Of a stretch of DNA of 64,000 nucleotides, positions 12,808 to 30,845 are shown piece after piece (the stretch's first letter is position 1; every line of letters begins with the position of its first letter). The notes beneath the pieces are model-generated. The model searched no databases, was not told the origin of the DNA, and was given only the letters and a program-made list of their open reading frames with translations. The position numbers and the translations under genes were made by a program. Source of the stretch: Bacteroidota bacterium (GTDB taxonomy: Bacteria; Bacteroidota; JABWAT01); contig JAFLBE010000024.1 in assembly GCA_017303995.1 (NCBI GenBank), positions 1-64,000 of the forward strand. The letters are read 5' to 3'.

Positions 12808-13086
12808 ATGGCATTAGATGCACTCGGAATGATTGAAACTAAAGGACTTGTTGGCGCAATTGAAGCTGCTGACGCCATGGTTAAAGCTGCCAAAGTTGAA
12901 CTGATCGGAAAAGAAACGATCGGTGGCGGATTTGTTACGGTAATGGTTCGTGGCGATGTTGGCGCTGTAAAAGCTGCCACAGATGCAGGTGCAGCCGCTG
13001 CTGAACGCGTTGGTGAACTCGTTTCCGTTCACGTGATTCCACGCCCACATGCCGACGTTGAACTGATTCTGCCGAAACGTTCTTAA
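12808..13086 (+). CDS. Bacterial microcompartment hexameric shell protein (BMC-H)
   Basis: This 92-residue single BMC domain protein is of the PduA/EutM/CcmK type. It begins [28 protein letters not shown] and ends with [21 protein letters not shown], both hallmark stretches. Such proteins form flat hexamers that tile the facets of a protein organelle, with a central pore for metabolites. AAAGGA is 8 bases before the ATG, and a strong promoter lies upstream. It is followed by a second BMC-H gene. No enzyme typical of a microcompartment is in the window, so the kind of organelle is unknown. Confidence 0.97.
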
Positions 13087-13100
13087 GCCCCTTGGCTGAC

Positions 13101-13592
13101 ATGACCGATTCCGCTTTAGGACTCATTGAAACCAGGGGTCTGATTGCTGCTATTGAAGCCGCTGATGCCGGATTGAAAGCTGCCAATGTTCAGTTACTTG
13201 CCCGATACAAGGCAGATGCTGCATTGGTTACTGTTCAGTTTGTTGGCGAAGTGGCTGCAGTAAAAGCAGCAGTTGAAGCCGGGAGTCAGGCTGCAGCAAG
13301 AATCGGAACCGTCATCAGTACACATGTTATCGCCCGCCCCGCACCAGAACTTTTCATAGAACTTCAGAAACCTGACAAACGGAATCTCGTTGTTTTAGGA
13401 AAGGATTCCACTGAAACCAAGTCTGATCTAACTTTAGCAGATATCGAAGTTCTTCCAGTAAGAGAACTCAGGACCCTTGCCCGCAATTATGAAAACCTGC
13501 CCATCAGGGGACGGGAAATCAGTAATGCGAATAAAGAACAATTGGTTGAAGCCTTCAGAAAAATTTTAAAACAGGAATCAGGAGACCGCTGA
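13101..13592 (+). CDS. BMC-H shell protein with a C-terminal Rho-N/SAP-like extension
   Basis: Residues 1-85 form a BMC domain (ALGLIETRGLIAAIEAADAGLKAANVQL and IGTVISTHVIARPAPEL). A roughly 75-residue extension follows: a charged linker, then LADIEVLPVRELRTLAR, IRGREISNANKEQLVEAFRKIL, a pattern like the helix-loop-helix of Rho N-terminal or SAP-type nucleic-acid-binding domains. In EutK, a BMC protein also carries a C-terminal helix-turn-helix. I choose the ATG at 13101; the frame is also open from a TTG at 13092. It follows the first BMC-H gene by 14 bases and is surely in the same transcript. The extension would face one side of the shell and could bind cargo or nucleic acid. Confidence 0.93.
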   Translation: MTDSALGLIETRGLIAAIEAADAGLKAANVQLLARYKADAALVTVQFVGEVAAVKAAVEAGSQAAARIGTVISTHVIARPAPELFIELQKPDKRNLVVLGKDSTETKSDLTLADIEVLPVRELRTLARNYENLPIRGREISNANKEQLVEAFRKILKQESGDR

Positions 13593-20184: not shown

Positions 20185-20220
20185 CCTTCTTCAATTAACC
20201 CAACTCTAATCTCTGCAAAA

Positions 20221-20249
20221 TTGGAAGGTTCCCAAAAATTTCCCATCTT
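20221..20249 (+). promoter_or_regulatory. Promoter of the B12 riboswitch operon
   Basis: TTGGAA (20221-20226), a 17-base spacer and CATCTT (20244-20249, continuing TTGC) lie just before the riboswitch. The layout matches other candidate promoters here with TATCTTTG. Confidence 0.6.
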
Positions 20250-20254
20250 TGCAT

Positions 20255-20475
20255 CTGCTTTTCGGTTTCCGTTCCAGGCTTAGCCGGGACGGAATGAAAA
20301 GGGAATGCTGTACGTTCTTTACCGGATAAATCAGCAGCTGCCCCGCAACCGTGATAGGTGAAACCAGGCATAACCACTGTTCCGATTTTAATCGGAACGG
20401 GAAGGGCCCGGATCTTAAAAGAGACCAAAAACTTTTAACACCTTAAGCCGGGAGACCTGCCGGAGAGATTCACCC
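20255..20475 (+). promoter_or_regulatory. Cobalamin (adenosylcobalamin-type) riboswitch
   Basis: The conserved core is unmistakable: AAAAGGGAATGCTGT near 20297, AAATCAGCAGCTG followed by CCCCGCAACCGTGAT (the B12 box region, 20328-20355), CCACTG at 20374, a stem TTCCGAT / ATCGGAA, CGGGAAGGG at 20398, and AAGCCGGGAGACCTGCCGG at 20444-20463. It lies 120 bases before the first gene of the B12 uptake operon. The leader after the core (20476-20585) would hold the expression platform. With no clear terminator hairpin, control of translation at the GGGAG before 20591 is plausible. B12 binding should shut the operon down. Confidence 0.96.
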
Positions 20476-20590
20476 GTTTCCGAGGGAGAACCGATGGTGG
20501 GCACCGGCTAATTCTTTTCTTACCCGACTGCTTGCCTTCCTGCCCAACCCCGGAGCGGATAACATCAATCCGTAAAACCAAGGGAGTTTT

Positions 20591-21622
20591 ATGTCATTCA
20601 AACTGCTTTTTTCTTTTCTTTTTATTTCCGCGATTTTCTTTTCATGTTCAGAATCTTCCGACTCAGAAGAAGTTTCAACAACGATTCCCGACAAACTTTT
20701 CATTCCGGCTTATGGTCCGTTCGGGACTTCAAATGCTGATTTGTCAGTCTACGATTTTTCAGGTGATTCCATCTACACTTTCGCTTATAAATCTGTAAAT
20801 GGCAAACAATTACCCGCTGGAGCTCAATCTGTTTTTTTAACACATAATCTGCTTTACATCTGCAGCGTTGACGGAAATTCAATCACTGTTCTCAACCCTG
20901 AAACGTTCAAAGAAGTTTTACAAAAAACCTATCCGACTGGCACGGGTGTCAATTATCTGACATCTGCAGATGGAATTACCGGTTATGCCACTGATGTCTA
21001 TCAAGCTCAGGTTTACAAAATCAGGCTGAGTGATTTATCAGTTTTGGATACAGTAAAGGTAGGTAACTATCCATGGCAACTTGAACTGATCGGTAACCGT
21101 CTTTTTGTTGCCAACTCAGGATACGGGTATGGAAACACTATTTCAGTCATTGATATTTCCAACATGACAGTTTCTAAAACGCTTACTGTTTCAGAAAACC
21201 CAACTTTTATGAAGAAATCGGGTACACGGCTTCTGGTTGAATGTTCAGGAATAAGCTGGTCAACTCCTGTTGTTGACGGAAAACTATATCTGATCAACGG
21301 AGAAACGGCCACCAAACTCGATTCCCTCACTATCACCGGTGGTTTTTACAGTGAGCTGTCTGTATCTGAAAACCAGTCTGTGTTTTTTGAGAAATCAGGC
21401 ATAAAAAAAGTCTCCTTTGACGCTAAATTTGGCAGTCTTACCGAGGTGAGTTTGGTTGGAGGAAATCCTGTTCTGATAGGAAATGATCTTAAGTTTACCA
21501 TCGGTGAGTCTTACAGTTCCACCCTTAAAAAAATCGAAAATGGTCTGCTTGTAAAAACCTTTAAAACAGCTGACTCTCCTTCTGGTAATTATGTCATTTC
21601 CTTTAAAACAGTTAAGAAATAG
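20591..21622 (+). CDS. Beta-propeller surface lipoprotein, BtuG-like candidate B12-binding protein
   Basis: The lipoprotein signal has a lipobox (AIFFSC, Cys19 or so). The rest reads as a YVTN/YncE-type beta propeller of short strands (LFVANSGYGYGNTISVID, YICSVDGNSITVLNPETF). In Bacteroides, surface propeller lipoproteins named BtuG bind B12 tightly and hand it to the TonB receptor BtuB. This gene is the first one after the cobalamin riboswitch and shares an operon with a TonB receptor, so a BtuG-like role is a reasonable inference. Sequence similarity to BtuG was not measured. GGGAG precedes the ATG. Confidence 0.75.
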   Translation: MSFKLLFSFLFISAIFFSCSESSDSEEVSTTIPDKLFIPAYGPFGTSNADLSVYDFSGDSIYTFAYKSVNGKQLPAGAQSVFLTHNLLYICSVDGNSITVLNPETFKEVLQKTYPTGTGVNYLTSADGITGYATDVYQAQVYKIRLSDLSVLDTVKVGNYPWQLELIGNRLFVANSGYGYGNTISVIDISNMTVSKTLTVSENPTFMKKSGTRLLVECSGISWSTPVVDGKLYLINGETATKLDSLTITGGFYSELSVSENQSVFFEKSGIKKVSFDAKFGSLTEVSLVGGNPVLIGNDLKFTIGESYSSTLKKIENGLLVKTFKTADSPSGNYVISFKTVKK

Positions 21623-21631
21623 TACTTTCTG

Positions 21632-21844
21632 ATGGAAAATAAAAATCCAACCGGATGTATATTCCCCTCCTGCAGTTGCCAGTACAGATGTGCCGATCTG
21701 TTCAGCAAAAAGGTTCCTGATCTCCGGGGTGGTAAATGTGCTGCGTGCAATAAACCCTCAACTGTTTACCAATCAGGGTCTCTATATTTTTGCAAATCCT
21801 GTCTTGCAGATCAATTGGGACTTGTAAAAAAGGAATCCGCATGA
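21632..21844 (+). CDS. Small cysteine-rich protein in the B12 operon, unknown
   Basis: This 70-residue protein has eight Cys in two groups: C-x4-C-x-C-x3-C near the N-terminus (GCIFPSCSCQYRC) and two CxxC pairs (KCAACNK, FCKSCLAD) that look like a zinc ribbon. There is no signal peptide. It starts 10 bases after the propeller gene, and its stop overlaps the next gene by ATGA, so it is translated as part of the operon. I do not recognise a family. A cytoplasmic metal-binding or cobalt-handling role is imaginable but unproven. Confidence 0.7.
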   Translation: MENKNPTGCIFPSCSCQYRCADLFSKKVPDLRGGKCAACNKPSTVYQSGSLYFCKSCLADQLGLVKKESA

Positions 21845-22728
21845 AGATTCTTTTTTTTCTTCTGGTTTCTTTTTCGGTTCATGCCCAGACGCCAGGTGCT
21901 GACAAAGTTCTATCCTGGAAATTCGGGAATAATACTGATTTTGGGCAGTCCTCTGAATTTTTTCCTGCAAATGTAATCGGGAATCCTGATACGGCAGCTT
22001 CAGTGACAGTTCCTTCGGCAAACCCGGAACACGTGGTCAGTCTTGGCCTGGGTGGCTGGATCATTCTTGAATTTACTGATAATCTGATCATTAACGGACA
22101 AGGACCTGATTTTGTTATTTTTGAAAATGTATTCTGGCCGGGCGGAGATTCGACAAGGTCATGGAAGGAGCCCGGAATTGTTTCAGTTTCAGAAGATGGT
22201 ATTCACTTTTTTACCTTTCCTTACGATTCTGTTTCCTGGTCTGGATGTGCCGGTACATTGCCGACGATCGGTTCAGAAAATCCGCAAAACTGGCCTGCCT
22301 GTGGTGGAAATGCTTTTGATCTTGAAGGAAGTGGTATGAATGCAGTCAGGTTTGTTAAAATTGATGATCGGTCCAAATGGAATCCTTTCGGATCTGGGTT
22401 TGATTTGGATGCGGTGGTTGCAATTAACAGCGTGCCGGTTTCAGTTTCGGATTACCTGGAAGAAATTCCCCATAAATTAACCCTTCGTGCATGGCCAAAT
22501 CCATTTAACCCGGAAACAACTCTTAATTGGGTTCAACCGGTTTCCGGTCGGGTTTCATTCAGTTTGGTTTCCTTAACCGGTGAAACTTTAAAAAACTGGG
22601 CAGAAACCTTTTCTGCCGGAAGCCAGCAACACAGGCTTGCTTTGGGTGAATTTTCGTCTGGTGTCTACCTCCTTAGAATTCAAACTGGCTTTCATTCCGG
22701 ATTTATCAAACTGGTATTAGTGAAATGA
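21841..22728 (+). CDS. Secreted surface protein with type IX sorting tail, B12 locus
   Basis: I use the ATG at 21841, which overlaps the preceding stop (ATGA) and opens a signal peptide (MKILFFLLVSFSVHAQ). The body is of the type often called cell surface protein in B12 loci: GGWIILEFTDNLIINGQGPDFVIFENVFW, EPGIVSVSEDGIHFFTFP and GSGFDLDAVVAIN. The C-terminal 80 residues are a type IX secretion (Por) sorting domain (RAWPNPFNPETTLNW ... GVYLLRIQTG), so it is exported to the cell surface. With the receptor downstream it probably helps capture cobalamin. The ligand is not shown by the sequence alone. Confidence 0.78.
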   Translation: MKILFFLLVSFSVHAQTPGADKVLSWKFGNNTDFGQSSEFFPANVIGNPDTAASVTVPSANPEHVVSLGLGGWIILEFTDNLIINGQGPDFVIFENVFWPGGDSTRSWKEPGIVSVSEDGIHFFTFPYDSVSWSGCAGTLPTIGSENPQNWPACGGNAFDLEGSGMNAVRFVKIDDRSKWNPFGSGFDLDAVVAINSVPVSVSDYLEEIPHKLTLRAWPNPFNPETTLNWVQPVSGRVSFSLVSLTGETLKNWAETFSAGSQQHRLALGEFSSGVYLLRIQTGFHSGFIKLVLVK

Positions 22729-24635
22729 AATACCTGATTTTTTCCATTCTTTTTGGATTTTCTGCCTCTGGGTTTTCCCAGACAGCAGGAATTTCAGTTT
22801 CAGAAGCCGATTCTGCAGGATGGAAATCAGCAAGAGAAGATCAGCTTGAGTCAATTGAAGTTTCTGCGACTAGAGATGGACTCCTGAGAAAAGCTTATTC
22901 TGCCTCAATGCCTTATCTTTCAACTCCATCTGAAACTCAGGCAGAACCTCTTTCAGTTGTGCTCGCCCGAATTCCAGGACTTGAAGTGCGGGATTATGGC
23001 GGCAATGGCGGACTAAAAACCGTTACCGCAAGAGGAACTTCTGCCTCTCAAAATCTCGTGGTTCTCGACGGAATGATCGTCAACGATGTCCTTACTGGGT
23101 CGGCCAATCTGAGTTTACTTTCACTCGATCATCTGAGTCAGGTCGCAGTGCAGACCGGTGGTTTTTCATCAGATGTCGCCAATGGTGGACTTGGATCTAC
23201 TGTCTATCTGAACTCCCGTCAGATTGGCGTTACCCGAACTCAGATTCAATCTTCAGCCGGGTCTTTCGGTACCCGCTCCTGGAAAGGAATGCAGGAATTC
23301 AGGACGGGTGCCATTTCAGGACTTTTTCATTTCGGATCTGATTGGACGGAAGGAAATTATCCGCTTACAACCGGCAAAACCCGAATCAACCAGGATTTTA
23401 CAGGAAAATCAGGTTTCGGTTCCCTAAATGCCAAAATCGGACCGACAGAATCTGCTTTAAATTTGATTTGGAACCGTCAGGAACAGGGTGTTCCCGGTCC
23501 GGTTTTTCAGGATAATTCTAATTTTTCTGACTCACGACTTTCAAATGAAGACATCCGTCTCATTCCAACCCTCAGCCTTTTCACAGGTTCCGGTTTGATC
23601 AGAACGTCTGCACTTATCAGAAACCAAAGGTTGGAATACACCGACGCTTCCTTTCCTACCGGAAAATCAGACTTCCATGAAAGTGAATTTGCTTTCCGTG
23701 CAGATTTTCTAACTCAGCATCAGAACACTCAATGGAACACCGGAATATATTTTCGGCGAAATCTGGCAGAAGCTGACATTTGGAGGGGCAAACCTGAAAC
23801 CGACAAACTTCAGCGAAACACACTTGCGGTTTTTTCAACCAAATCATTTTCTCTCCCTGTTCACGACCTGAATATCCAAGTTAGCGGAAGGTTTGAAGGA
23901 GGGAAAAATCTCCCGGCGACCGGTTCGGGATCTGTCTCACTTTCAGGAAAAACCGGAATTGTCGTCTCATCTCTTTCCATAAGCCGGAATATCCGGTATC
24001 CGTCGTTGAATGAAATCCGTTTGAAATCATCTGAAAGTTCATTTTTAGTCCCCGAAAAATTTGCTGGTATCGATGGCGATTTCATGATTCCATTTCCAGC
24101 TGGCTTCATCAGGATGAAAGGGTTTTTCTACCGGATTCAGGATAAGATCATTTCCATTCCCAAGAATCTGGTTGTCTGGTCCGCAATTAACGCTGATGAA
24201 GTTCAGGGTACCGGTGTTGAACAATCTTCAGAATGGGCCGTTGGGAAATTTGCTTTCAGCCAGTTTGTAACGTTACAATCGGTTCAGACACGGAAGGGAA
24301 TCAGTCTTCAGGCTGAAGGAAAACAGGTCGTTTATACGCCAAAGATCACAGCAGGAACATCGGCAGGTTGGAAGGCAGAAATCTGGCAGGTTACAACAAA
24401 TTGGCGGTACACCGGACTCCGGAATGCCTCTGTTGAAAATTTGAAATCTGATCAACTTCCAGGATTTTTACTTGGCTCATTTTCTGTAACGGGTAAAAAA
24501 ACATTTTCACTCTTCACGGGTACGGTTGATTTCACCCTCAACAACCTGACAAACCAGACTTACGAATGGGTTATGTCATATCCTATGCCCGGCAGGTCGT
24601 TTTTGTTGACATTTACACTGGAAACCAATCCGTGA
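22725..24635 (+). CDS. TonB-dependent outer-membrane receptor, BtuB-like
   Basis: This protein of 636 residues has a signal peptide (ending GFSQ), a TonB-box-like stretch (LESIEVSATRD), and a plug domain (about 60-165: PLSVVLARIPGLEVRDYGGNGGLKTVTARGTSASQNLVVLDGMIVND). A 22-strand-type barrel follows, with the typical end ...NNLTNQTYEWVMSYPMPGRSFLLTFTLE. It is shorter than SusC-type receptors and lacks their N-terminal carboxypeptidase-like domain. Its position behind a cobalamin riboswitch makes it the likely B12 importer. It overlaps its upstream neighbour (ATGA at 22725) and its downstream neighbour (GTGA at 24632). BtuFCD-like transport genes are not in the window. Confidence 0.9.
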   Translation: MKYLIFSILFGFSASGFSQTAGISVSEADSAGWKSAREDQLESIEVSATRDGLLRKAYSASMPYLSTPSETQAEPLSVVLARIPGLEVRDYGGNGGLKTVTARGTSASQNLVVLDGMIVNDVLTGSANLSLLSLDHLSQVAVQTGGFSSDVANGGLGSTVYLNSRQIGVTRTQIQSSAGSFGTRSWKGMQEFRTGAISGLFHFGSDWTEGNYPLTTGKTRINQDFTGKSGFGSLNAKIGPTESALNLIWNRQEQGVPGPVFQDNSNFSDSRLSNEDIRLIPTLSLFTGSGLIRTSALIRNQRLEYTDASFPTGKSDFHESEFAFRADFLTQHQNTQWNTGIYFRRNLAEADIWRGKPETDKLQRNTLAVFSTKSFSLPVHDLNIQVSGRFEGGKNLPATGSGSVSLSGKTGIVVSSLSISRNIRYPSLNEIRLKSSESSFLVPEKFAGIDGDFMIPFPAGFIRMKGFFYRIQDKIISIPKNLVVWSAINADEVQGTGVEQSSEWAVGKFAFSQFVTLQSVQTRKGISLQAEGKQVVYTPKITAGTSAGWKAEIWQVTTNWRYTGLRNASVENLKSDQLPGFLLGSFSVTGKKTFSLFTGTVDFTLNNLTNQTYEWVMSYPMPGRSFLLTFTLETNP

Positions 24636-25675
24636 AAATAGCTTTCTTTTTAATCCTCCCGCTATTTTTTCTCTCCTGTGATAAAACCCCGGAAGATGAA
24701 CAATTTCCGAAACAGGTTCCTTCAGAACCGGGTATTTATATTTTGAACGAAGGAATCTGGGGACAAAACAATTCATCGCTCCAGTTTTTTTCTGTAACAA
24801 CCGGACTTCTTTCCGGCGATCTAAAAACCGGAGTTCTGGGTGAACCTTTGGGCGACACAGGGAATTCGATGACTATTGACGGAAGTTTAGGATTGATCTC
24901 CGTTACCTCTTCTAACAAGTTGGTCTGGTTTGATCTCAACTCAGGCACAATAAAAAAATCATATAAATTCAGTACCGATTCAAGTCCTCGTGAAGCTCTC
25001 ATCGGGCCGGATGAAATGATTTATATTTCCAGTTTCTACCAACATCAGATACTGGTAATTAACCCATCAACTCAAACCGTAATCAATTCCATTCCGGTTG
25101 ATCCATATCCTGAGAATCTGGCCAGTGATGGCGAAAATCTATATGTTTCATGCAATGGAATGGGTTCAGGCCGAACCGTGATGAAAATTCCGTTTCAAAA
25201 TACTGAAGCCAAAATTTCAATATCAGTTCCTCAAAATCCAGACAAACTTGTGAGTAGCCCAACAGGTTTACTGGTTTACTGTCAGGGAAATCTTTGGGAA
25301 GCCCAACCGAAAAGCAGGATTGTTAAAATTGACAGGATATCAAATATGATTTCTGATTCTCTTGATCCGGAAATGCCAGTAAAATCAGTTTGTGAGGCCG
25401 GTTCTGGAAAGATTTCAGTGACTACTGATGATGCCGTTTTTATCGTCAATTCCGATTTATCGATAACGGATACTCTGGTTGATAGAAAGAAGCTCAATTT
25501 TAAAGGAAAAATAGTTTATCAAACTTGTTTCGATGCTAAAACCGGTTGGTTTTGGGTGACAACAACCGATGCCTACACCGTTAGAGGTTGGCTTGAAGCC
25601 TTCCACAATGGAAACCGGGTTGCAGGTCCGGTTCAGGTTGGAATTAACCCGGGAAGTTTACTGGTGAAACCGTGA
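24632..25675 (+). CDS. Second beta-propeller lipoprotein of the B12 operon (DUF5074/BtuG-like)
   Basis: The start is the GTG at 24632, which overlaps the receptor stop as GTGA. The longer frame from 24566 lies inside the receptor gene. The signal MKIAFFLILPLFFLSC has a lipobox. The sequence GIYILNEGIWGQNNSSLQFF is the opening typical of DUF5074/YncE-like surface propellers, and further blades follow (MIYISSFYQHQILVINPSTQTVI, NLYVSCNGMGSG). Being directly behind the TonB receptor, it is the stronger BtuG candidate of the two propellers. That is inference from position and fold. Confidence 0.8.
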   Translation: MKIAFFLILPLFFLSCDKTPEDEQFPKQVPSEPGIYILNEGIWGQNNSSLQFFSVTTGLLSGDLKTGVLGEPLGDTGNSMTIDGSLGLISVTSSNKLVWFDLNSGTIKKSYKFSTDSSPREALIGPDEMIYISSFYQHQILVINPSTQTVINSIPVDPYPENLASDGENLYVSCNGMGSGRTVMKIPFQNTEAKISISVPQNPDKLVSSPTGLLVYCQGNLWEAQPKSRIVKIDRISNMISDSLDPEMPVKSVCEAGSGKISVTTDDAVFIVNSDLSITDTLVDRKKLNFKGKIVYQTCFDAKTGWFWVTTTDAYTVRGWLEAFHNGNRVAGPVQVGINPGSLLVKP

Positions 25676-26082
25676 CAAAATCTGCAATTGACGTTACGTG
25701 TGCAATCATTGAACGGGGTGGATTGATTCTGGCAGTTCAGCGCAAAGCCGGAAAACACCTTTCGCTAAAATGGGAATTCCCGGGTGGGAAAATTGAAACC
25801 GGCGAGTCAGCAGAACACTGCATTGTCAGGGAAATCAGAGAAGAATTAAGTCTGGAAATCGGGATACTCAGCGATGGACCTGAAGTTTTCCACCAGTATG
25901 ATTCAACTTCAATCCGGATGAAATCCTTCAGATGTCAGATTCTTGACGGAATCATTAGGTTGAACGAACATGAAAATTTTATCTGGCTTAAACCGGCGGA
26001 ATTAAATAAACTCGATTGGGCAGAGGCAGATGTGCCGATTGTCAGGTGGATGGAACGGCAAGGTTTAACTGAAGGAATTTAG
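25672..26082 (+). CDS. MutT-like NUDIX hydrolase (8-oxo-dGTP diphosphatase type)
   Basis: The complete NUDIX box is present (GGKIETGESAEHCIVREIREELSLEIG, with GxxxxxEx7REUxEExGU). The N-terminal part, VTCAIIERGGLILAVQRKAGKHLSLKWEFPGG, is that of MutT, which removes oxidised dGTP from the nucleotide pool. It is cytoplasmic and 136 residues long. The GTG start overlaps the stop of the B12 propeller gene (GTGA at 25672), so it is the last gene of the riboswitch operon. This is an odd neighbour with no obvious link to B12. Confidence 0.92.
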   Translation: MTKSAIDVTCAIIERGGLILAVQRKAGKHLSLKWEFPGGKIETGESAEHCIVREIREELSLEIGILSDGPEVFHQYDSTSIRMKSFRCQILDGIIRLNEHENFIWLKPAELNKLDWAEADVPIVRWMERQGLTEGI

Positions 26083-26085
26083 AAA

Positions 26086-26676
26086 TCAGGGAACCACTCT
26101 TCTAGCGCCAACATAATATTTTTTATAATAGGCCTGATCAAGATCATCAATGGTAACGCCGACCTGAATACTTGCATGGGCAAACTGATTATTGCCAACG
26201 TAAACCCCAACATGGCTCACACTCCGGCTTCGTCTCAGTTTGAAAAAAACAAGATCTCCTTTTTTCAGATTGTCTCTAGAAATCTCTTTTCCTTCCTTAA
26301 ACTGATCTCTGCTGGTTCTTGGCAGGTTGATTCCATAAACGGCTGAGAATAAATTCTTCATAAAACCTGAGCAATCAGTTCCGGTTTTTGCCATTCCGCC
26401 ATATCGGTAGGGAGTTCCCTTCCATGCCATTACAAATGCCATTAAGGGGTCAGAGTCAGCATTTTCAATATCCGAAAAACGTGTAGGCTTTTCACTTTTA
26501 GGGTCTTCGACGGATGGTTTCTCAATGGGATCAACAGGTTCAAAACGACTTTTTGCAGGTTCTTCGCCTGATTTTGCTTTTTCTTCAGGATGTTTATAAC
26601 GGCTCACGCCCTGAGGTCCTGAACAGGAACTCAGAAAAAAAAGTCCGCTTATAAATAAAAAGAAAAGTTTAATCAA
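26086..26676 (-). CDS. NlpC/P60-family peptidoglycan endopeptidase lipoprotein
   Basis: The signal peptide has a lipobox (GLFFLSSC). A Lys/Glu/Pro-rich linker is followed by the NlpC/P60 domain (about 80-195) with the catalytic Cys in GTDCSGFMKNLF, His in SHVGVYVGNN and a third polar residue, His, in FAHASIQVGV. It cuts peptide stems of peptidoglycan in the periplasm. The start is a TTG at 26674-26676 with AGGAT eight bases upstream. It converges on the mutT gene with only 3 bases between stops. Confidence 0.92.
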   Translation of the reverse strand: MIKLFFLFISGLFFLSSCSGPQGVSRYKHPEEKAKSGEEPAKSRFEPVDPIEKPSVEDPKSEKPTRFSDIENADSDPLMAFVMAWKGTPYRYGGMAKTGTDCSGFMKNLFSAVYGINLPRTSRDQFKEGKEISRDNLKKGDLVFFKLRRSRSVSHVGVYVGNNQFAHASIQVGVTIDDLDQAYYKKYYVGARRVVP

Positions 26677-27670: not shown

Positions 27671-27940
27671 TTACCGTGCCAGATCGACACGATCAACAAT
27701 TCCGACGATGGAGGCATCAACAGGTGCCATGGGAACGTTCATGGGAATGACAGCTTCACTGCTGGTCACGTACAGAACCATTTCCCCAACACCTGCGCCG
27801 ATGGTATCCACCGCAATAATGGGTTTCTCTGTGAATTTTCCTTCAAATGTCATCGGTTGAATCAACATCAATTTTTTCCCTGAAAGATGGTCGTCCTTCC
27901 GGGTTGCCCAAATCGTACCGATGACCCGGGCATAAAACAT
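27671..27940 (-). CDS. Microcompartment vertex protein (BMC-P, EutN/CcmL family)
   Basis: This 89-residue single EutN/CcmL domain has [29 protein letters not shown] at the start, [23 protein letters not shown] in the middle and [14 protein letters not shown] at the end. These form pentamers that cap the vertices of microcompartment shells. It starts 3 bases after the stop of its paralogue, with GGAGCT as ribosome site. Its middle loop carries [14 protein letters not shown] where the paralogue has GSSARQTEITKNK, so the two vertex proteins differ at the outer face. Confidence 0.95.
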
Positions 27941-27943
27941 GAT

Positions 27944-28216
27944 TCAGCTCCAGTCTGCGTCAAGTTTATCAACAATAGCCATCACGACGGCATCAACCGG
28001 TTTGTTTTTCGTGATTTCGGTCTGTCTTGCAGATGAACCTGTAGCAACCAGGACGATCTCACCAACACCGGCACCCACACTGTCTACTGCAACAATAAAC
28101 TTATCAAGAGACTGATAGTGAAGGTCAACGTGTCTCACAACGAGCAGTTTCATACCGGTTAAGCCGGCATCTTTTCTGGTCGCCCAGACAGTTCCAATCA
28201 CTTTTCCTATAACCAT
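27944..28216 (-). CDS. Microcompartment vertex protein (BMC-P, EutN/CcmL family), second copy
   Basis: This 90-residue EutN/CcmL domain starts MVIGKVIGTVWATRKDAGLTGMKLLVV. The core is FIVAVDSVGAGVGEIVLVATGSSARQ and the end PVDAVVMAIVDKLD. It matches the pentameric family in full length, with the canonical GSSAR loop. It sits between the zinc-ribbon gene (30-bp gap) and the first BMC-P gene. Hexamer genes are about 15 kb away at 12808. No clear Shine-Dalgarno precedes the ATG. Confidence 0.95.
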   Translation of the reverse strand: MVIGKVIGTVWATRKDAGLTGMKLLVVRHVDLHYQSLDKFIVAVDSVGAGVGEIVLVATGSSARQTEITKNKPVDAVVMAIVDKLDADWS

Positions 28217-30436: not shown

Positions 30437-30511
30437 CGGGGTGTAGCGCAGCCTGGTTAGCGCGCCTGCCTTGGGAGCAGGAGGCCCCGAGTTCGAATCT
30501 CGGCACCCCGA
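30437..30511 (+). tRNA. tRNA-Pro (anticodon TGG)
   Basis: The acceptor stem CGGGGTG / CACCCCG is perfect. The anticodon arm is CTGCC-TTGGGAG-CAG with anticodon TGG, and the T arm is GAGTTCGAATCTC. The discriminator base is A. No CCA is encoded. Confidence 0.95.
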
Positions 30512-30544
30512 CTTGAAAAAATGCTATGTGCTGGCATTGAGCAC

Positions 30545-30575
30545 TTGCGCACAGGAATTTTTGTGCTTATCTTTG
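30545..30575 (+). promoter_or_regulatory. Internal promoter before tRNA-Arg
   Basis: TTGCGC (30545-30550), a 17-base spacer and TATCTTTG (30568-30575) lie 9 bases before the tRNA-Arg gene, where they could give an extra start. The TATCTTTG box recurs at 59520. Confidence 0.5.
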
Positions 30576-30584
30576 CAGTCCTTT

Positions 30585-30658
<74 letters not shown>

Positions 30659-30676
30659 CGAGCACGACTTACGATG

Positions 30677-30750
<74 letters not shown>

Positions 30751-30772
30751 CTGATTTAAAGTATTGAAAAAC

Positions 30773-30845
30773 GGCCTGTTCGACTAGGGGTTTAGGTCAT
30801 CGCCCTTTCACGGCGGTAACACGGGTTCGAATCCCGTACAGGCTA
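30773..30845 (+). tRNA. tRNA-Glu (anticodon TTC)
   Basis: The acceptor stem is GGCCTGT / ACAGGCT with a terminal G-T pair. The anticodon arm is CGCC-CTTTCAC-GGCG with anticodon TTC, and the T arm ACGGGTTCGAATCCCGT. The discriminator is A. Confidence 0.94.

Follow-up and report, generated by a model that had tools for sequence, protein, structure and literature searches.

What does the riboswitch-led cluster of six genes at positions 20221 to 26082 of a 64,000-nucleotide stretch from a Bacteroidota bacterium (lineage JABWAT01; assembly GCA_017303995.1, contig JAFLBE010000024.1, positions 1 to 64,000; hereafter, the window) bring into the cell? From the homology, fold, and neighborhood evidence described below, we consider it very probable that the six genes form an operon for the uptake of cobamide (vitamin B12) and belong with the BtuB-BtuG-BtuH systems. 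The cobalamin riboswitch that a first-pass annotation had placed ahead of the operon was recovered by cmscan at 20246 to 20478 on the plus strand as an RF00174 aptamer matching the full-length model (model positions 1 to 189) with 95.1 bits and an E value of 2e-22, the gathering threshold being 31.5. A whole-genome search found this to be the only RF00174 element in the 4.31-Mb genome. On the plus strand of the leader no intrinsic terminator-like site stood above background, and a search of the leader for an expression platform gave no unusual fold and nothing above background.

Six genes lie 3' of the riboswitch on the same strand. Every frame was open and four of the five gene junctions were ATGA or GTGA overlaps, in agreement with the coupled layout proposed earlier. 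The genes encode a first propeller lipoprotein (20591 to 21622, plus strand), a 70-residue microprotein with eight cysteines (21632 to 21844, plus strand), a surface protein with a type IX secretion system (T9SS) sorting tail (21841 to 22728, plus strand; ATGA overlap with the microprotein stop), a TonB-dependent receptor (22725 to 24635, plus strand; ATGA junction), a second propeller lipoprotein (24632 to 25675, plus strand; GTGA junction), and a NUDIX (MutT-like) hydrolase (25672 to 26082, plus strand; GTGA junction; PF00293, 63.7 bits). The automatic open reading frame starts at 21790 and 24566 were judged to be too early; the starts at 21841 and 24632 yield signal peptides. The operon was taken to end at 26082 because the next gene (26086 to 26676) is convergent. 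The same gene order was kept in two genomes of the same genus (loci L009 and L010) and, minus the surface gene, in a genome of a different genus (L156). This arrangement is far beyond chance.

The receptor contains a Plug domain (PF07715), and its best relative in the PDB was BtuB1 of Bacteroides thetaiotaomicron (8blw_A, E value of 5e-22), followed by 8p97, 8p98, and 8bmx_C and then by Escherichia coli BtuB. Its nearest solved relatives are thus BtuB1 to BtuB3, the mark of a Bacteroides-type receptor. In phmmer searches of the PDB, both propellers had 8bmx_D, a chain of the B. thetaiotaomicron BtuB-BtuG complex, as their best match, propeller 2 nearly over its full length (E value of 1e-14) and propeller 1 with an E value of 2e-7. 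Propeller 2 also passed the DUF5074 model (PF16819) with 35.9 bits against a cut-off of 27.2; propeller 1 remained below this cut-off at 18.4 bits. For propeller 1, AlphaFold 2 gave a model with a predicted local distance difference test score (pLDDT) of 85, for which Foldseek ranks 1 to 16 were all BtuG or BtuBG entries with template modeling (TM) scores of up to 0.79/0.83; the alignment behind this model also held rows of the propeller 2 type, which may bias it toward the BtuG fold, but the single-sequence search, which is independent of the alignment, pointed to BtuG too. Both proteins are BtuG-like, propeller 1 as judged from its predicted fold and propeller 2 from its sequence. Read by eye, propeller 1 has a lipobox ending in FFSC with acidic residues past the cysteine, and propeller 2 has one ending in FLSC. 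The earlier impression that two propellers around a BtuB-like receptor recall BtuG-BtuB is therefore upheld by sequence, fold, and neighborhood alike.

The surface protein consists of a signal peptide, a 190-residue domain (21886 to 22455, plus strand), and a T9SS type A tail. No Pfam family fits its core, and none matched any of its 63 relatives. When a family profile built from these 63 relatives was compared with the PDB, the top match was 8blw_B residues 430 to 498, which belong to the BtuH domain of BtuG1 (E value of 3e-4), and the second was BtuH2 (7biz_A, E value of 0.23). The AlphaFold 2 model of the domain (pLDDT of 95.3) also had 8blw_B as its first Foldseek match (E value of 2e-4), and hhalign aligned the family profile with 12 Bacteroidia BtuH domains at a probability of 96.4% and an E value of 1.3e-9. 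Conversely, a BtuH-domain profile compared with just the window surface protein matched it with an E value of 2e-6, and pairwise comparison of a BtuH fragment recovered window-family proteins from other Bacteroidota (L120 and L121). The cobalamin contacts of BtuH2 include Asn399 and Phe401 (PMC8941943). Their equivalents in the window domain, N81 and F83, were Asn in 63/63 relatives and Phe in 59/63, respectively, a placement that relies on the N-x-F spacing and on chain and protein numbering that differ by an offset of 100; when the offset was checked on a close BtuH2 relative, His476 fitted and Gln333 was one residue out. These data, from sequence profiles and a predicted model, support the assignment of the surface protein as a distant BtuH homolog. 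Because BtuH is recognized by a lipobox and an extra N-terminal domain, and the window protein has neither a lipobox nor an Ig/PKD or propeller domain at its N terminus, we refer to it only as BtuH-like.

The sorting tail of the surface protein (22492 to 22710, plus strand) scored 27.6 bits against PF18962 (cut-off of 27) and 25.4 bits against TIGR04183 (cut-off of 23). The genome encodes the T9SS translocon protein SprA (1348 bits) and many more T9SS type A-like tails; as judged from this gene content, the organism can export the tagged surface protein. The first-pass annotation had described this protein as a type-IX-sorted partner added to a BtuG-BtuB pair. The sorting signal was borne out, with a tail above both curated cut-offs and SprA present, but the protein adds no novel type of component, being a distant relative of BtuH. 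In a separate locus (L129, 1300 to 2289), the gene directly 3' of a TonB receptor encodes a BtuJ-type DUF4465 protein that ends in a T9SS-like tail. Delivery of B12 binders by the T9SS may be a wider theme.

Do related proteins occur in the same company elsewhere? The placeholder model NF033170 (LIC_13355 family lipoprotein; PMC11891782) matched 62 of the 63 members of the window family, and the window protein itself scored 33.6 bits, below the cut-off of 120. The BtuH-like family is spread over about eight phylum names, and 80 of its loci were found in the genome collection, 76 of which were checked for a riboswitch by cmscan. A cobalamin riboswitch lay upstream on the same strand at 47 of these 76 loci, which are mutually related and were picked by similarity and hence are not independent draws, against a chance expectation of approximately 1% (genomes of some 2 to 8 Mb mostly carry a single riboswitch). 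The link is not merely an effect of metagenome-assembled genomes (MAGs), since Lujinxingia vulgaris TMQ2 (L088), a named strain, is included. With profiles cleaned of T9SS tails, a same-strand TonB receptor gene was found no more than 6 kb away at 42/80 loci and a BtuG-like propeller at 41/80. TIGR01779 was the best NCBIfam match for six of seven sampled receptors from these loci.

The means of anchoring varied across the family among a T9SS tail, a lipobox, and a propeller fusion. The Myxococcota members had no T9SS tail and, by eye, a lipobox-like start, and at four loci of KSB1-type MAGs a propeller, a BtuH-like domain, and a T9SS-like tail were joined in one protein (L056, 7942 to 9867; L061, 4172 to 6085; L062, 2729 to 4648; L064, 7966 to 9873). 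This layout is like that of B. thetaiotaomicron BtuG1, which joins propeller and BtuH domains in one chain (PMC10404256); genomes with such BtuG1-type fusions are also found within the phylum Bacteroidota. With related clusters present in many genomes, the possibility that the operon is a lineage-specific oddity was ruled out, and on sequence evidence this kind of operon is widespread and not peculiar to the JABWAT01 lineage. On balance, we favor the view that NF033170, together with its relatives, is a family of BtuH-type cobamide-capture proteins that crosses phylum borders, a counterpart of BtuG and DUF4465 that extends over Bacteroidota (with Ignavibacteria and Kapabacteria), KSB1, Electryonea, Fermentibacterota, Sumerlaeota, Myxococcota, Omnitrophota, Verrucomicrobiota, and Leptospira LIC_13355, with the anchor swapped by lineage, and that the B12 regulon of the window lineage has a further component, the eight-cysteine microprotein, that had not been described before.

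No signal peptide was visible in the microprotein, and no Pfam family matched it. All eight cysteines were kept at 50% identity in a genome of the same genus (G001), and eight were read from the sequence of its counterpart in another genus of the same family (G003), where the gene holds the same operon position. The order in the latter genome (L156, contig C26, reverse strand) is riboswitch, propeller 1, microprotein, receptor, propeller 2, and NUDIX, and the BtuH-like gene is missing. The microprotein and MutT are therefore regular operon members in this bacterial family, and the BtuH-like gene is modular. The cysteines include two CxxC pairs, and our guess is that the microprotein is a cytoplasmic zinc-binding protein. 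Could these two genes, together with propeller 1, be passengers without a role in uptake, propeller 2 being the only functional BtuG lid? Such a reading would suit the DUF5074 score of propeller 1, and neither the microprotein nor MutT was found in the wider locus set, save for one other locus in which NUDIX was weakly matched. We nevertheless regard it as unlikely, since the order of propeller 1, microprotein, and MutT was kept in a second genus and since many related loci also have a second propeller, which is often the first gene after the riboswitch.

Does the organism have a use for imported cobamide? A BtuF-BtuC-BtuD-like set is encoded on contig C40 of the same genome (L021), away from the operon, which answers the earlier question of whether btuFCD genes are present elsewhere. 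A FecCD transporter on contig C84 was also considered as BtuFCD but was ruled out because it adjoins NikR and a siderophore-type receptor, and the C40 set was preferred. The C84 cluster itself (L020), with NikR, a TonB receptor, and a FecCD-type ABC transporter, probably serves nickel uptake. MetH is encoded on contig C106 and a methylmalonyl-CoA mutase subunit on contig C44. No corrin-ring methylases were found: the tetrapyrrole (TP) methylase matches in the genome were limited to a SUMT that adjoins genes for sulfite reduction, an RsmI, and an RsmI-like protein (identified by reading). With B12 enzymes present and too few methylases for corrin-ring synthesis, the organism, by its gene content, both uses cobamide and has to import it.

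Several observations weigh against the assignment of a cobamide uptake operon with a BtuH-type component. TIGR01779 (TonB-B12) was the best NCBIfam match of the receptor, but its 52.4 bits lie far under the BtuB equivalog cut-off of 599.7. In several Kapabacteria the receptor, BtuH-like, and propeller genes cluster without an adjoining riboswitch, and in Kapabacteria and relatives (L133 to L148) a single riboswitch stands ahead of a separate propeller gene of 420 to 770 residues, sometimes with a receptor, and the BtuH-like cluster lies elsewhere. The window domain is much shorter than BtuH2 in its second half, so that only some of the BtuH2 contacts could be positioned on it and Tyr510, Trp511, His476, and Trp577 have no certain counterparts. 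Finally, Foldseek ranks 2 to 50 for the domain were mostly discoidin/CBM32 proteins, with scores only slightly worse than that of BtuH.

The last of these points raises the question of whether the protein with the T9SS tail is instead an adhesin or carbohydrate binder of the discoidin/CBM32 type, and the B12 work of the operon falls to its receptor and propellers. The sister-genus operon that wholly lacks the BtuH-like gene would fit this explanation, as would the description of the relative LIC_13355 of Leptospira as a binder of laminin and plasminogen (PMC11891782). Neither cobalamin nor B12 occurs in that paper. However, BtuH led the matches in the sequence-profile, fold, and profile-profile comparisons, the Asn/Phe contact positions are conserved, family genes in distant phyla are preceded by cobalamin riboswitches, and some members are fused to BtuG-like propellers. 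The fold neighborhood is also shared by BtuH2 itself, whose DALI neighbors include AlyQ, a CBM32-bearing lyase (PMC8941943). We therefore hold a carbohydrate-binding or adhesive role to be quite improbable and retain the BtuH-type assignment.

The low TIGR01779 score bears on a different possibility, namely, that the operon imports a noncobamide cargo needed when B12 is short, such as a different tetrapyrrole, a cobalt complex, or a compound that replaces the cofactor. In other bacteria, cobalamin riboswitches also regulate substitutes that do not depend on B12, which counts in its favor. Against it, the best solved relatives of the receptor, of both propellers, and of the surface protein are all B12 proteins, and the genome has B12 enzymes, no ring synthesis, and no second cobalamin riboswitch. 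We give this explanation very little credence, and cobamide remains the preferred cargo.

How, then, might the uptake system work? By analogy with the Bacteroides systems (PMC6143338, PMC8941943, PMC10404256), from which binding, capping, hand-over, and regulation are inferred, scarcity of cobamide would leave the riboswitch unliganded and permit expression of the operon, presumably as a single transcription unit. The BtuH-type protein, exported by the T9SS rather than lipid anchored, would bind cobamide outside the cell and hand it over to the propellers and receptor. Propeller 1 would act as a second BtuG-fold surface lipoprotein, both propellers would catch cobamide at the cell surface, and propeller 2, encoded directly after the receptor, most likely caps the receptor as BtuG does. 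The BtuB-like receptor would carry cobamide through the outer membrane, and the BtuFCD proteins encoded elsewhere would finish the import, so that cobamide reaches MetH and methylmalonyl-CoA mutase inside the cell. The proposal of a B12 acquisition system outside Bacteroidales thus gains support from the genomic evidence, with cobamide binding and the riboswitch response inferred.

Other features of the window and genome were recorded. The region from 20200 to 22200, comprising the riboswitch, propeller 1, the microprotein, and the start of the surface gene, was 95 to 99% identical to the same-genus genome G002, and the flanks and remainder of the operon were 58 to 87% identical; judged by these sequence identities, this region is a recent recombination tract with its breakpoint within the surface gene. 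Bacterial microcompartment (BMC) shell genes flank the operon at 12820 to 13047 and 13113 to 13340 (plus strand) and at 27671 to 27940 and 27944 to 28216 (minus strand), two being of the hexamer type and two of the EutN/CcmL vertex type, and a further BMC gene pair is present on contig C83. Four tRNA genes are clustered at 30437 to 30845. A CarH-like regulator with a B12-binding domain is encoded on contig C37 (L025, 1590 to 2501, minus strand).

BtuH has so far been reported as a B12-binding domain that has no known homologs among other families and occurs almost exclusively in gut Bacteroidetes. In the open-access literature, the ten best of 26 matches for BtuH with cobalamin or Ignavibacteria included no BtuH paper outside the Bacteroides studies, and priority is uncertain; as far as titles and the openings of abstracts indicate, none of 14 papers matched for type IX secretion and vitamin B12 treats such an export of B12 binders. 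If the link is true, many proteins of environmental phyla that have no known function, and one Leptospira "adhesin" lipoprotein, gain a testable function, competition for B12 by surface traps is not specific to the gut, and bacteria deliver one type of trap by lipid anchor, by fusion, or by type IX secretion.

Among known systems, BtuJ/DUF4465 (IPR027828; PMC12751083, PMC13398666) resembles the window protein, a predicted B12 binder, in being of the jelly-roll type, secreted, and encoded in riboswitch loci beside TonB receptors and DUF5074 propellers. The surface protein was nevertheless ruled out as a member: no sequence relation was found (hhalign, 0.3%), PF14717 matched 0/63 of the relatives, DUF4465 was outside the top 50 fold matches, and no DUF4465 protein is encoded in the genome. 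BtuH2 and the BtuH domain of BtuG1 (PMC8941943; PDB 7biz, 8blw) are closer, being homologous by profile and fold, sharing the Asn399/Phe401 positions, and adjoining BtuB and BtuG genes; the window domain differs in its length (190 versus about 270 residues), in having no Ig/PKD domains and no lipobox, and in its T9SS type A tail. The B. thetaiotaomicron BtuB-BtuG loci (PMC6143338, PMC10404256) resemble the window operon in combining a cobalamin riboswitch, a TonB receptor with a propeller surface lipoprotein, and an extra surface B12 binder, which in the window is a predicted one. The window operon differs from them in placing two propellers and one receptor in a single operon that does not contain btuFCD, and in its T9SS-exported third component, its eight-cysteine microprotein, and its MutT gene.

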